Below, one piece after another: positions 19,422-27,963 of a stretch of DNA of 64,000 nucleotides. The number at the start of each line of letters is the position of its first letter. Position 1 is the stretch's first letter. The stretch is from an uncultured Lachnospiraceae bacterium. GTDB taxonomy: Bacteria; Bacillota; Clostridia; Lachnospirales; Lachnospiraceae. The stretch lies in NCBI GenBank assembly GCA_900314445.1, contig OMVA01000086.1:1-64000 (forward strand), in the 5' to 3' direction. The translations under genes were made by a program, and so were the position numbers. A model generated the notes under the pieces. That model did no database searches, had not been told where the DNA came from, and saw only the letters and a program-made list of their open reading frames with translations.

Positions 19422-20018
19422 ATGCGTAGAAAACATAGAGATTCTGCATATTTTCATTTGCAGAAAGAAAAAGTTGAAAAGAATATTTCCTGGTGGAAAA
19501 TTTTGGTGAATTATCTGCTGGTTATTTTTGCAGCTGTTGTGTTGGCATATGGCTTTGTTACTTTTTTATGCCAGTGCATACGTATGAATGATTCGTCAAT
19601 GGAACCACTTTGTCATCAGAGAAATGTGCTTCTTGTGGATAAAATCAGCTATAAAATCAGAGAGGTTAAGCGTGGTGATGTTGTTGCCATTGAGAGAACT
19701 GAAAATAAGAACACAATGATTATAAAAAGAGTTGTAGGACTTCCTGGCGATACGGTGGCTGTTGTGGGAGGTCGTCTGGTAATTAATGGAAAACAGACAG
19801 ATGCAAGTCTTTCCTATTCTTATATAGAAAGAGAAGGAAGACTGACCGAACCTGTTACATTAGATGATGATGAATATTTCGTAATTGGAGATTCACCAAG
19901 TCAGAGTGAAGATTCCAGATTTGTAAGTTTTGGAGACATTAATAAGTCCGAAATTAAAGGACGTGTTTTTTATGCCTGGGTTGATCACCAGGGAAAGAAG
20001 GTAACGAATGGCGATTGA
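19422..20018 (+). CDS. Type I signal peptidase (short form)
   Basis: It cleaves signal peptides from exported proteins. The 198-residue protein has a cytoplasmic head, one membrane anchor (about 28-50), and the Ser/Lys dyad: Ser59 in NDSSMEPLC and Lys102 in IIKRVVGLPGD. The C-terminal box appears as VIGDSPSQSEDSR, whereas most members have GDNR-x-NSxDSR, so that box is slightly degenerate. Two of the three residues after the catalytic SM also differ (EPL for xPT). It ends overlapping rbgA by 11 bases. A second signal peptidase follows rbgA, so this locus has two in a row. Confidence 0.9.
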   Translation: MRRKHRDSAYFHLQKEKVEKNISWWKILVNYLLVIFAAVVLAYGFVTFLCQCIRMNDSSMEPLCHQRNVLLVDKISYKIREVKRGDVVAIERTENKNTMIIKRVVGLPGDTVAVVGGRLVINGKQTDASLSYSYIEREGRLTEPVTLDDDEYFVIGDSPSQSEDSRFVSFGDINKSEIKGRVFYAWVDHQGKKVTNGD

Positions 20019-20868
20019 ATGGTATCCTGGACATATGACCGCGGCTATGCGCCGTATGGAAAAAGATTTACCTTTGGTAGATTTAGTTATTGAATTATTG
20101 GATGCAAGAATTCCTATTTCCAGTAAAAATCCAAAGCTGGATTCTCTGGTAAAAGGAAAAAAGAAAATCATTGTTCTCAATAAGGCAGATCTTGCTGATC
20201 CGAAATTCACGGAAGAATGGGTAAAAGTTTTAAAGAAGAAATATGAATTTGTAATTCCAATGGATTCTCGAAGCAAAAAGGGAATGACTGAAGTTAAAAA
20301 GGCTGCTGGTATTGTACTTCAGGAGAAGAGAGAAAGAGATAAGAAGAAGGGAATTGCTGCAAGACCTATTAAGACTATGATTGCTGGTATTCCTAATGTA
20401 GGAAAGTCAACATTCATTAATTCTTTTGTAGGTAAAGTAACAGCTAAGACTGGAAATAAGCCTGGTGTTACTCGTGGCAATCAGTGGATTCGTATCTCTC
20501 AGGATTTAAATCTTTTAGATACACCTGGTGTTCTTTGGCCTAAATTTGATGATCAGGCTGTTGGTTACAAGCTGGCTTCTTATGGAGCTATTGCAGACCA
20601 TGTGTTTGATGAAGGGGATGTTGCCTTTACTGCCATTGGATACATGAAAAAATATTATTGCAATGCTTTATCTGAGAGGTATAAAATAGAAAATGTGTCC
20701 GAAATGGACAATTTAGCTATTTTAACGCAGATTGGAATTAACAAAAAGCTTTTGAAAAAGGGAGCTGAAGTAGACTTTAGCAGAGCTTCTCATATGCTTT
20801 TAGAGGATTTGCGTTCTGGTCGTCTGGGAAGAATTTCATTGGATGATCCATTTGAACAAGAAGATTAA
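20008..20868 (+). CDS. rbgA: Ribosome biogenesis GTPase RbgA (YlqF)
   Basis: A circularly permuted GTPase needed for late assembly of the 50S subunit. The permuted order is visible: G4 (LNKADLA) comes first, then G1 (IAGIPNVGKSTFINS), then G3 (LLDTPGVLWPKF), with a C-terminal RNA-binding helical domain. The 286-residue length is typical, as is the start IEWYPGHMTAAMRRME. It overlaps the end of the upstream signal peptidase gene by 11 bases. Proximity to rplS fits the rplS-lepB-rbgA-rnhB order found in Bacillus and Clostridia. Confidence 0.96.
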   Translation: MAIEWYPGHMTAAMRRMEKDLPLVDLVIELLDARIPISSKNPKLDSLVKGKKKIIVLNKADLADPKFTEEWVKVLKKKYEFVIPMDSRSKKGMTEVKKAAGIVLQEKRERDKKKGIAARPIKTMIAGIPNVGKSTFINSFVGKVTAKTGNKPGVTRGNQWIRISQDLNLLDTPGVLWPKFDDQAVGYKLASYGAIADHVFDEGDVAFTAIGYMKKYYCNALSERYKIENVSEMDNLAILTQIGINKKLLKKGAEVDFSRASHMLLEDLRSGRLGRISLDDPFEQED

Positions 20869-20886: not shown

Positions 20887-21921
20887 TTGAATTTTCAAGA
20901 AGAAGAGAATGATTTCTTTAAACTCGCTGAAGAGGAATCTGCAGAGCGAGAAAGAAAAGAACAAAAGAAGCTTGAAAAGGCTGAAAAAAGGGCTGAAAAG
21001 AGAGCTTTAAAACTTAAGAAAAAAGAAGAAAAGCGTCATAAGAAGTTAGGCTTATCGGATGATGTGGATGCTGAATCTACAGAATCTAAAGAAGGTGCTG
21101 CTGATGAAGTTAGTTCTAATGAAGAGGAAGCTTCTGCTGATGCAGTAACTACTGCTGAGAAAGACACTTCTACGGAGAATGGAACTGCTACAGAAGAAGT
21201 AAAAGCTAAAGAAGAAGCAACTTCTAAGGAAGAAGTGGCTTCACAGGGAGATGAATCCCCTGCCAGGGATTTGGCTGCAAGTGATTCGGAAAATACAGAA
21301 AAAAAGTCTCTAGAATCTGAAAAAGATTCAGAGGATGATGATAAAAAATCCCGCAGACGTAAACGTAAGAGGGGTGAGAAATATAGAGACCCTAATCTTA
21401 ATATCGTTCAGGAATTACTGAGTCTCATCGTCTACATTGGTGTAGTAATTCTTATTTGTTTTATTATCATGAACTTTGTTGGTGGACGTGTTCAGGTTGA
21501 AGGTCCATCCATGCAGGATACTCTCTATACAGGTGATAATCTTTGGGTAGACAGAGTCTCCTATAAGTTCTCAGATCCAAAGCGATTTGATGTGGTTGTA
21601 TTCCCAGTTGCTGATGGTAGCTATTATATCAAGCGTGTTATTGGACTGCCTGGAGAAAAGGTACAGATTCTTCCAGATGGTACCATCTTAATTAATGATA
21701 AGGCTTTGGATGAGCATTATGGCAAGGAAACCATTTGGGATCCTGGTATCGCCGCTCAGCCATTCTATCTTGGCAAGGATGAGTATTTTGTACTTGGTGA
21801 TAATCGTAACGATAGCCATGATAGCCGTGCATCAGATATAGGTAATATTTCTAAGGATGATATTTTTGGTAAAGCAGTATTCCGACTGTCGCCAATTGAA
21901 AAATTCGGAAAGATTGACTAA
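20887..21921 (+). CDS. Type I signal peptidase with long charged N-terminal extension
   Basis: The catalytic part (about 173-344) is a normal signal peptidase I: membrane anchor near 175-198, Ser208 in EGPSMQDTLYTGDN, Lys249 in YYIKRVIGLPGEKV, and the VLGDNRNDSHDSR box. In front of it lie about 170 extra residues that are almost all Glu, Lys, Ala, Ser, Thr and Asp. They begin as a basic/acidic predicted coiled coil (10-55), continue as an acidic repeat-rich region (58-150) and end in a KSRRRKRKRGEKYR patch before the anchor. They would lie in the cytoplasm. The start is TTG at 20887 after CGGGGTAG; no ATG lies between it and the conserved region. Confidence 0.9.
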   Translation: MNFQEEENDFFKLAEEESAERERKEQKKLEKAEKRAEKRALKLKKKEEKRHKKLGLSDDVDAESTESKEGAADEVSSNEEEASADAVTTAEKDTSTENGTATEEVKAKEEATSKEEVASQGDESPARDLAASDSENTEKKSLESEKDSEDDDKKSRRRKRKRGEKYRDPNLNIVQELLSLIVYIGVVILICFIIMNFVGGRVQVEGPSMQDTLYTGDNLWVDRVSYKFSDPKRFDVVVFPVADGSYYIKRVIGLPGEKVQILPDGTILINDKALDEHYGKETIWDPGIAAQPFYLGKDEYFVLGDNRNDSHDSRASDIGNISKDDIFGKAVFRLSPIEKFGKID

Positions 21922-25288: not shown

Positions 25289-26296
25289 ATGAAGATTTGT
25301 GTGCTGGGAGCAGGTAGCTGGGGTATCGCCTTAACAAAACTGCTTTCTTTTAATAATCACGAGCTTTCTGTTTGGTCTATTGATCCAGAAGAAGTTGCCA
25401 TGCTGAAAGAATATTGTGAACAGAAAGATAAGTTACCTGGTGTAATTCTTCCAGGAAATGTTACATTTACTACCAATGTGGAAGAAGCGCTGGCAGATAA
25501 GGAACTTGTAGTTATGGCAGTTCCTTCTCCATTTGTTCGCTCTACTGCAAAGAATGTTTCTAAGTTTATTAAGGATGGAGAAATCATTGTTAGTGTAGCT
25601 AAGGGAATTGAAGAAACAACATTAATGCGTCTTGATCAGATTATTGAGGAAGAAATTCCTCAGGCTAGAGTTGCTGTTCTTTCTGGTCCAAGCCATGCTG
25701 AAGAAGTTGGTAAATGTATGCCAACTACAGTAGTAGCTGCGTCCAAGGATCATGCACTGGCTAAGGAAGTTCAGAATACGTTTATGACAGATTTCTTCCG
25801 TGTATATACCAGCCCGGATGTTATTGGGGTGGAACTCGGTGCAGCTCTGAAGAATGTTATTGCTCTGGCTGCAGGTATGGCGGATGGTCTTGGTTGTGGA
25901 GACAATACAAAGGCAGCACTTATCACCAGAGGTATTGTAGAAATTACAGCCCTTGGTACAGCAATGGGTGGTGCACCTGAGACCTTCTCAGGACTTTCCG
26001 GTATTGGTGATCTTATTGTTACCTGTGCTTCTCAGCATAGTCGTAACCGTAAGGCTGGCTTTTTGATTGGACAGGGTCATACATATCAGGAAGCTATGAA
26101 TGAAGTTAAGATGGTAGTAGAAGGCGTATATTCAGCTAAAGCGGCTCTTGCTTTAGCAAAGAAATATGATGTTTCTATGCCAATTGTAGAGAATGTAAAT
26201 AAGGTCTTATTTGAAGATTATCCAGCTAAGGATGCCCTTCATGACCTTTTAACAAGAGATAGAAAGCGTGAGGTATCAACACTTCACTGGTCTTAA
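25289..26296 (+). CDS. gpsA: NAD(P)-dependent glycerol-3-phosphate dehydrogenase
   Basis: It reduces dihydroxyacetone phosphate to sn-glycerol-3-phosphate for PlsY, its upstream neighbour. The Rossmann motif is VLGAGSWGIALTKLL (GxGxxG, residues 5-19). The catalytic region ELGAALKNVIALAAGMADGLG and the GLSGIGDLIVTCASQHSRNR block are complete. The length of 335 residues is normal. AGGGGG precedes ATG 25289. The next gene follows after 12 bases with its own AAGGAGG. Confidence 0.97.
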   Translation: MKICVLGAGSWGIALTKLLSFNNHELSVWSIDPEEVAMLKEYCEQKDKLPGVILPGNVTFTTNVEEALADKELVVMAVPSPFVRSTAKNVSKFIKDGEIIVSVAKGIEETTLMRLDQIIEEEIPQARVAVLSGPSHAEEVGKCMPTTVVAASKDHALAKEVQNTFMTDFFRVYTSPDVIGVELGAALKNVIALAAGMADGLGCGDNTKAALITRGIVEITALGTAMGGAPETFSGLSGIGDLIVTCASQHSRNRKAGFLIGQGHTYQEAMNEVKMVVEGVYSAKAALALAKKYDVSMPIVENVNKVLFEDYPAKDALHDLLTRDRKREVSTLHWS

Positions 26297-26308
26297 GGAG
26301 GCCTATTA

Positions 26309-27199
26309 ATGTCTGCACAACTTAAGGTGGTGCTGTTTACGCTGGCAATTTTGATTCTATCCTTTGGAATTGTTGCTTTCATGAACGGATATCTGGGTGG
26401 AGCCCAAGCAAAAAAATATATGGCTGAATCAGGGGATGAAGATGCGAATTCCAACTCTATGCCTGAGGATGTAACAACAGCTGATACAGAGTTCGAACTT
26501 TTGAGTCAGTATGCCACAGCAAGTAATGCAACCATCTCGGATGCATTTACGATTAAGCAGGATATTGAAGGGGATGATTATTTTGATCCTTCCCAGTTTG
26601 CTTATGTTGCTCGTGTGGGTGATTCTTACTTTGATACCACTGTATTTATTGGTGATGGAAGAGTTGTGGATTTATCTTTGTATGGTGGCCGTGCAAATTT
26701 TAAATCCTTCGCCACAGAAAGCCTGAGCTTAGATAAAATTTCTACAGATACCATTATTCCAATGAATGGAACGAATCTTACTGTGGTGGATGCAATTAAT
26801 AATTCTTCCTACAACAATTATTACATTGCTTTTGGACTGAATGAGATTGCTTTGTATGATTCAACCACCTTTGCAAATGAGATTAGTGCCTTGATTGATA
26901 CGATTCTGGCTCATAATTCCAAGGCAATTGTCTATGTTGTGAACGTTTCGCCAACTACTGCAGATATATCCAATACAACTATTTATAATTTGGATAATAT
27001 AAATGCCTTTAACTATGCGTTAAAGTCTATGTGCCAAACAAGAAAAGATGTTGTATATTTGGACCTTGCCAGCAGTGTAAAGGGTGACGATGGATATCTT
27101 TCACCAGATGATAGTCCAGACGGCATGAGAATGAATGCCAGTTCTGCGGCGAAAATGGTTGAGTATATTCGTCAGCACGTTGTAGAAAGAACAAATTAA
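26309..27199 (+). CDS. Membrane-anchored SGNH-hydrolase-like protein with degenerate active site
   Basis: A 296-residue protein with an uncleaved-looking N-terminal membrane segment (about 6-28), an acidic linker (40-65) and an exported domain. The domain follows the SGNH/GDSL layout of many clostridial exported esterases: block I is VFIGDGRVVDL (114-121), block III is FGLNEI (175-180) and block V is DGMRMN (271-276). In active enzymes block I reads GDSR and block V DG-x-H. Here the nucleophile is Gly117 and the histidine position is Arg274, so hydrolysis is not expected. Block III Gly and Asn remain. It may bind a glycan or partner. It starts at ATG 26309 after AAGGAGG and ends 2 bases before scpA. 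No name is warranted. Confidence 0.7.
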   Translation: MSAQLKVVLFTLAILILSFGIVAFMNGYLGGAQAKKYMAESGDEDANSNSMPEDVTTADTEFELLSQYATASNATISDAFTIKQDIEGDDYFDPSQFAYVARVGDSYFDTTVFIGDGRVVDLSLYGGRANFKSFATESLSLDKISTDTIIPMNGTNLTVVDAINNSSYNNYYIAFGLNEIALYDSTTFANEISALIDTILAHNSKAIVYVVNVSPTTADISNTTIYNLDNINAFNYALKSMCQTRKDVVYLDLASSVKGDDGYLSPDDSPDGMRMNASSAAKMVEYIRQHVVERTN

Positions 27200-27201
27200 C
27201 C

Positions 27202-27963
27202 ATGCATAAAATAGATAAGCTTGATTTCAAATTAGAAAAATTTGAGGGACCTCTGGATCTTCTTTTACATCTGATTGATCGAAATAAATTTGATATTTTT
27301 GATATCCCTATTGTTGAGATTACGAAACAATATCTGGAATATGTGGATCAGTTGGAAGAGGAAGATATGGATGTCATGAGTGATTTCCTGGTCATGGCAT
27401 CTACTTTAATTTCCATTAAGTCCAAGATGTTACTTCCGAAAGATGAAGAGGTGGAAGAGGATGAAGCAGATCCTCGTCAGGAACTTGTTCGTAGACTTTT
27501 GGAATATAAGGTATATAAGTATGCTTCCTTGGAATTAAAGGATATGGAACTGGATGCTGGTGATACATATTTTAAAAAGGCTTCTATTCCAAAGGAAGTT
27601 AAGGAACATCAGGAACCAGTTGATCCGTTTCAGTTAGTAGAAGAAAGTGGAATAACGATATCCGCACTGAATGAAATTTTTCAGACTTTGCTGAAAAGAG
27701 AAGTTGCTCGAATCGATCCTGTTCGAAGCAAGTTTGGTACCATTACAAAAGAAGAGATTCGTTTGGAAGATCGAATGATTGAAGTTCGAGAACAAATGAA
27801 GGGTCTGAAAAGTATTAATTTTAAGACACTTTTGGGTACTAAGCGTACGAAGATGAATGTGATTGTTACCTTTATGGCTATTCTGGAATTAATGAAGTAC
27901 GGACATTTATTTATTCGCCAGACTGAGATGTTTGGAGATATTTTGATTGATTCACTGGAATAA
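27202..27963 (+). CDS. scpA: Segregation and condensation protein A
   Basis: The kleisin subunit that bridges the SMC dimer (smc lies at 42071). It has 253 residues, beginning FKLEKFEGPLDLLLHLIDRNK, the diagnostic ScpA N-terminus, with a conserved middle YLEYVDQLEEEDMDVMSDFL and a C-terminal winged helix ending in LLGTKRTKMNVIVTFMAILE. The Shine-Dalgarno is weak; the gene starts 2 bases after the SGNH-like gene, so coupled translation is likely. scpB follows after 47 bases. Confidence 0.96.
   Translation: MHKIDKLDFKLEKFEGPLDLLLHLIDRNKFDIFDIPIVEITKQYLEYVDQLEEEDMDVMSDFLVMASTLISIKSKMLLPKDEEVEEDEADPRQELVRRLLEYKVYKYASLELKDMELDAGDTYFKKASIPKEVKEHQEPVDPFQLVEESGITISALNEIFQTLLKREVARIDPVRSKFGTITKEEIRLEDRMIEVREQMKGLKSINFKTLLGTKRTKMNVIVTFMAILELMKYGHLFIRQTEMFGDILIDSLE

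Follow-up and report, generated by a model that had tools for sequence, protein, structure and literature searches.

MBOAT-SGNH pairs carry an acyl-shuttle hexapeptide, FXYXXF (PMC12148441). Active-site residues of the SGNH fold have been probed in the Streptomyces lipase SrL, where Ser10Ala and His216Ala are each reported to abolish activity and the block II substitution Gly54Ala is not (PMC10779480). Natural SGNH-like domains described as catalytically inactive have precedent in the OSK domain of insect Oskar (PMC12247748). Among the listings covered by our literature search, none described the subfamily considered here or a bacterial SGNH pseudoenzyme.

The window, a stretch of 64,000 nucleotides from an uncultured Lachnospiraceae bacterium (genome G000), contains an ORF between gpsA and scpA whose features are listed in Table 1. 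A reading made earlier from the sequence only had reported an intact frame with a good ribosome-binding site in a conserved housekeeping neighborhood. That description is correct: the ORF has no internal stop, its AGGAGG is near-perfect with a computed anti-SD duplex of -11.1 kcal/mol, and its place between gpsA and scpA is confirmed. In position, shared strand and succession of anchor, linker and SGNH domain, the ORF matches the gpsA-scpA orthologue group. A promoter and terminator scan found 17 promoter-like sites against 22.7 expected. Elsewhere in the window, two ORFs (19422-20018 and 20887-21921) that we take to resemble type I signal peptidases flank a GTPase-like ORF (20008-20868); the second of the two has a long acidic and lysine-rich N-terminus. 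In the same genome, an ORF in the region of L002 (G000:C4:31353) and L027 (G000:C4:33341) presumably resembles a glycoside hydrolase family 25 lysozyme. Its N-terminus weakly matches the pseudoenzyme's anchor and linker, and a GDSL gene lies about 2 kb away on the same strand.

Table 1. Window coordinates of the SGNH-fold gene, its neighbors and its motifs
Feature	Position	Strand	Details
SGNH-fold pseudoenzyme ORF	26309..27199	+	296 aa plus stop; ATG start; internal stops 0
Ribosome-binding site AGGAGG	26296..26301	+	7 nt before ATG; overlaps gpsA stop codon
gpsA, upstream neighbor	25289..26296	+	Pfam PF01210, PF07479
scpA, downstream neighbor	27202..27963	+	Pfam PF02616
Junction TAA-CC-ATG	27197..27204	+	scpA start 2 nt past pseudoenzyme stop
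N-terminal membrane anchor, residues 3-29	26315..26395	+	model helix 3-29; best 19-residue hydropathy 2.81
Low-confidence linker, about residues 30-96	26396..26596	+	pLDDT <50 at 38-50 and 53-68
SGNH alpha/beta/alpha domain, residues 102-295	26612..27193	+	model, Foldseek, VIA-align
Block I IGDGRVV	26648..26668	+	Gly117 (codon GGA, 26657-26659) for nucleophile Ser
Block II	26717..26722	+	E137-S138 where orthologues have invariant Lys-Gly
Block III GLNEIAL	26834..26854	+	G176, N178, E179 kept; I177L, G181A, W182L
Block V DGMR	27119..27130	+	D271, G272 kept; K273M; Arg274 (AGA) for His

The window protein is a member of the SGNH/GDSL fold superfamily (PF13472), as the sequence-only reading had proposed; Pfam, the AlphaFold model and structural superposition agree. 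The Pfam match scores 35 bits (cutoff 32.9) and is confined to the profile's C-terminal part. The model, built from a 75-row alignment, has a mean pLDDT of 87 and mostly exceeds 90 across residues 91-296; alignment A3 used 74 of 80 loci, with L189, L207, L213, L214, L215 and L217 left out. By both Foldseek and VIA-align the domain, about 195 residues long, groups with GDSL acylhydrolases. The best VIA-align superposition (Z 18.1, 2.8 Å, 172 residues) is to 7pzg, a sialate O-acetylesterase from Phocaeicola vulgatus, and those to the PatB catalytic domain and Ape1 reach Z 14.7 and about 15, respectively. The fold shared with acylhydrolases shows no function. NCBIfam matched no family to SGNH proteins of this subfamily. 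Compared with its 13 orthologues, the window protein is 27-39% identical over its full length, and its measured linker spans 79 amino acids versus 106-159.

Inspection of the catalytic blocks confirmed exactly the residues called earlier: Gly117 for Ser, Arg274 for His, and a retained Gly and Asn in block III. Block I reads I114-G-D-G117-R, with Arg118 kept, and in an alignment with the solved chain 4ppy DGMR falls opposite DGVH. In the orthologues the catalytic Ser is encoded by TCN (13/13) and the His by CAY (13/13); the window codons, GGA and AGA, lie at least two and three nucleotide steps, respectively, from any orthologue codon. The active site has also lost residues beyond those first noted (T119V, E120V, K137E, G138S, G181A, P265S, E266P and K273M). 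Ser138 replaces the block II Gly, a position at which Ser also occurs in intact relatives such as L021 and L057. Of the residues that mark an active enzyme, the block III Gly-x-Asn (G176, N178) and the block V Asp (D271) are present, and the nucleophile Ser and block V His are both absent; an intact triad elsewhere in the protein, the observation that would have overturned the earlier view, appeared in neither the alignment nor the model. Because its two defining residues were looked for and are absent, the window protein, judged by its sequence, does not count as an SGNH hydrolase where that name denotes an enzyme. Catalytic activity has presumably been lost, and no acyl-enzyme would be expected to form. 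A small practical lesson is that annotating this gene as GDSL would lead to the false prediction of an esterase.

The earlier expectation that loss of Ser and His would be conserved at the gpsA-scpA locus failed when the orthologues were collected: all 13 syntenic orthologues read GDSRTE and DGKH, and the residues are missing only in the window genome. Within its genus, 57 of 61 genomes have scpA, and upstream of it an intact SGNH gene follows gpsA in 10 genomes, no gene separates gpsA from scpA in 45, one genome is cut off (G072) and one is the window genome. With G072 and the four genomes lacking an scpA match left out, the gene is absent from the locus in 45 of 56 informative genomes. The intact gene also occurs outside the genus, in the three genomes G124, G154 and G213. 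Of 397 Lachnospiraceae genomes, 107 contained matches to the orthologue profile. Ser and His are present in 117 of the 117 non-window proteins among the 118 family matches listed, which were picked by whole-profile score rather than by motif, with a profile built mostly from intact members; for L334, whose alignment is partial, the residues were read from its ORF. Ser and His were likewise intact in 72/72 and 70/70 rows of an earlier aligned set. An earlier scan for relatives used patterns containing GDSRTE or DGKH, which made it blind to dead members, and it does not enter the claim of uniqueness. The window lineage, represented by the genome of one strain, holds the only dead copy seen.

We considered whether a working second copy of the subfamily exists in the window genome and rejected this, as the profile finds only this gene and weak partial matches (E 0.002 or worse). 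Two other PF13472 matches in the genome are not matched by the subfamily profile. A separate single-sequence scan of a collection of genome contigs found no relative. In other Lachnospiraceae, SpoIVA is encoded beside the SGNH gene. The order gpsA, SGNH gene, spoIVA-sized gap and scpA occurs at L147-L149, L151, L153-L155 and L157; in L074 and L075 such a gap holds an ORF, which Pfam identifies as SpoIVA in L075. The window genome's own genus appears to have lost spoIVA. Since it is absent from all 61 genus genomes, loss together with sporulation cannot explain the death of this copy only.

Further analysis addressed the history of the branch. In a tree of PlsY, GpsA, ScpA and ScpB from 58 genomes (G077 left out), G000 stands alone on a long branch (0.328), next to 28 species that form a clade and all lack the gene; it is missing from two other clades of the genus as well. 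At least two and probably three losses have occurred in the genus, with deeper nodes weakly supported (64 and below). At 46 domain positions the 13 orthologues do not vary, and the window protein has changed 16 of these: S117G, T119V, E120V, K137E, G138S, T166S, I177L, G181A, V216T, D222N, F226Y, P265S, E266P, K273M, H274R and R282K. Leave-one-out controls gave 0 to 3 changes in twelve other genomes and 11 of 57 in G213, whose housekeeping branch is as long as that of G000 and whose changes include no catalytic residue; the difference between G000 and G213 is not significant alone (p 0.11). Changes in G000 fell at 11 of 21 positions in the catalytic blocks versus 5 of 25 elsewhere (T166S, V216T, D222N, F226Y and R282K), a contrast whose Fisher p of 0.031 is indicative, the four-block split having been made by eye after seeing the data. 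Judged from these replacements, constraint on the active site is gone in the window lineage.

The ratio of SGNH to housekeeping branch length is 3.3 for G000 versus 1.83 on the remaining branches; similar ratios occur in G084 (3.46) and G213 (2.72). Where two intact orthologues are close to each other, dN/dS across the region that they match is 0.047-0.072; pairwise values that include the window protein are saturated (dN about 0.6, dS 2.7 or undefined). The earlier reading had taken the intact frame as a sign against decay, and a neutral simulation indeed explains the open frame badly. At 0.1 substitutions per site the probability of no stop is 0.007-0.042 and at 0.2 it is below 0.003; the chance of both catalytic codon changes is 2e-5 and 4.5e-4, respectively, under a nucleotide model that ignores indels and selection on replacements. 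Because a stop-free frame and such distant Ser and His codons are jointly improbable under neutral drift, the frame was probably protected long after the residues were lost.

We noticed a further difference in the window genome, which encodes no MBOAT protein. It is the only such case among the 31 genus genomes that are at least 90% complete (present in 30 of 31). MBOAT proteins occur in 93% of all family genomes, in 106 of 106 that are SGNH-positive versus 262 of 290 that are SGNH-negative; the Fisher p of 2e-4 is optimistic because the genomes are related, and nine MBOAT-negative genomes were called from gaps in the match list. The window genome is small (2.1 Mb), and the missing MBOAT may be coincidence. 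Six AT3 acyltransferase matches are still found in it. Searching the genus and the family gave 65 loci, and at 29 of these a same-strand MBOAT adjoins the subfamily SGNH gene; the number is 10 among the top 30 family loci and 7 among the 80 named loci. The C-terminal motif is F(L/M)Y(F/L)xF, for example FLYFRF, in all 15 complete MBOAT ORFs examined, a number of which adjoin other partners. No MBOAT adjoins any gpsA-scpA-type orthologue or the window gene. In six gpsA-type genomes inspected (L340-L345; G061, G014, G084, G082, G028 and G029), an ORF of about 375 amino acids comes after the MBOAT and is DHHW/AlgX-like in the four scanned with Pfam (G061, G028, G082 and G084). We infer a possible MBOAT partnership of the gpsA-scpA branch from co-occurrence only; the intact ancestor of the window gene could have been a second transferase or esterase on the same polymer.

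At ten other loci (L346-L355; G030, G071, G063, G074, G070, G080, G021, G026, G032 and G221), an MBOAT ending in FLYFRF, FLYLRF or FMYFSF lies directly upstream of a GDSR-type SGNH gene, and in G074 four tandem SGNH genes stand behind one MBOAT. These genes likely constitute a surface acylation system. If so, a large and frequently MBOAT-paired SGNH subfamily of Lachnospiraceae would likely serve to acylate surface polymers in gut bacteria.

The explanation that we favor, with moderate confidence, is that the window protein is a pseudoenzyme specific to its lineage, its frame still under selection, and that it descends from an SGNH O-acyltransferase or O-acetylesterase (GDSR...DGxH) that was extracellular and anchored in the membrane. 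The ancestor would have been a Ser/His enzyme encoded between gpsA and scpA, with spoIVA there too in spore formers, and its substrate a polymer of the cell surface. The window lineage would then have dismantled its acylation machinery until no MBOAT was left in the genome. The enzyme would have lost its donor or substrate and with it catalytic constraint, after which Ser could become Gly, His could become Arg and the surrounding pocket residues could change. The protein, presumably still translated from its strong ribosome-binding site, should fold, be anchored and be exposed without forming an acyl-enzyme. Non-catalytic binding by the folded domain would most likely account for retention of the frame, and coupling to scpA translation would be a second, possibly sufficient, reason. 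The surface location, the order of events and the cause of retention are all what we infer. It is tempting to speculate that, once MBOAT-dependent acylation was lost, an SGNH transferase became a membrane-anchored glycan-binding pseudoenzyme here and was deleted in related lineages; this fuller account is tentative, and we would sooner doubt than assert it.

Translational coupling might by itself have kept the frame open, with the protein idle and scpA dependent on ribosomes that finish the SGNH frame, a possibility that we regard as unlikely yet serious. The scpA start lies immediately past the stop, where a ribosome-binding site is nearly lacking: at -1.2, against -11.1 at the SGNH start, the anti-SD energy of scpA is the second weakest among 48 loci and the weakest among the 14 gene-bearing loci (49 loci were submitted, and 10 further genus loci were left out). 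The accelerated branch fits an idle protein, and sister species without the gene show that it is dispensable in the genus. However, conserved positions changed far less often outside the blocks than inside them, and the few replacements away from the active site are conservative. The domain has lost no large piece, although losing one in frame would cost nothing, and is still modeled with high confidence. Short gpsA-scpA spacing, moreover, is common in genomes without the SGNH gene, so that coupling is not special to it. We lean to a residual binding role over coupling alone because the latter would allow domain deletions and free amino-acid drift, neither of which is seen; in a single genome, however, selection on the protein since the loss blends with the history before it.

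A recent, plain pseudogene that has not yet collected stops would account for relaxed constraint and for repeated loss in relatives, but it is quite improbable: the distant catalytic codons together with an open frame of 296 codons were improbable at every drift time tried, and the ribosome-binding site is strong. Least credible of all is new chemistry in a pocket formed by Asp271, Asn178, Ser138 and Arg274. Asp271, Asn178, Gly176 and Arg118 are indeed kept, and Arg274, three nucleotide changes from His, could have been selected; yet no substitute pair of nucleophile and base is apparent, and the conserved pocket residues T119, E120, K137, G138, P265 and E266 were lost as well. The sequence-only reading is supported in part, and its verdict, a retained non-enzymatic role and not decay, may or may not hold. 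Neutral drift explains the open frame badly, but the active site is no longer constrained, the branch evolves faster and coupling to scpA had been overlooked. If the reading of a lineage-specific pseudoenzyme is right, a single operon position has had three outcomes in one genus, a working enzyme in 10 genomes, no gene in 45 and a dead enzyme in one, and the fate of an orphaned enzyme becomes testable.

Comparison with known systems sets the window protein apart at several levels. The closest solved folds, 7pzg and other GDSL acylhydrolases, share only 16% identity with it and are, we assume, active enzymes with a triad. Oskar OSK is SGNH-like, as is the window protein, and is described as inactive, but it is eukaryotic, binds RNA and belongs to an unrelated context. 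The MBOAT partners PatB, AlgX/AlgJ and DltD have the SGNH fold in common with the window protein, and other members of its subfamily adjoin acyl-shuttle MBOATs; unlike the MBOAT-SGNH pairs, the window protein has no adjacent MBOAT, no MBOAT in its genome and no catalytic Ser or His. Intact GDSR...DGKH orthologues keep the Ser, the His, the block II Lys-Gly and GINE(L/I)G, which the window protein does not. Those at gpsA-(spoIVA)-scpA in other Lachnospiraceae, such as Eubacterium ruminantium FB3002 (L159), nevertheless have the same locus, anchor, linker and domain.
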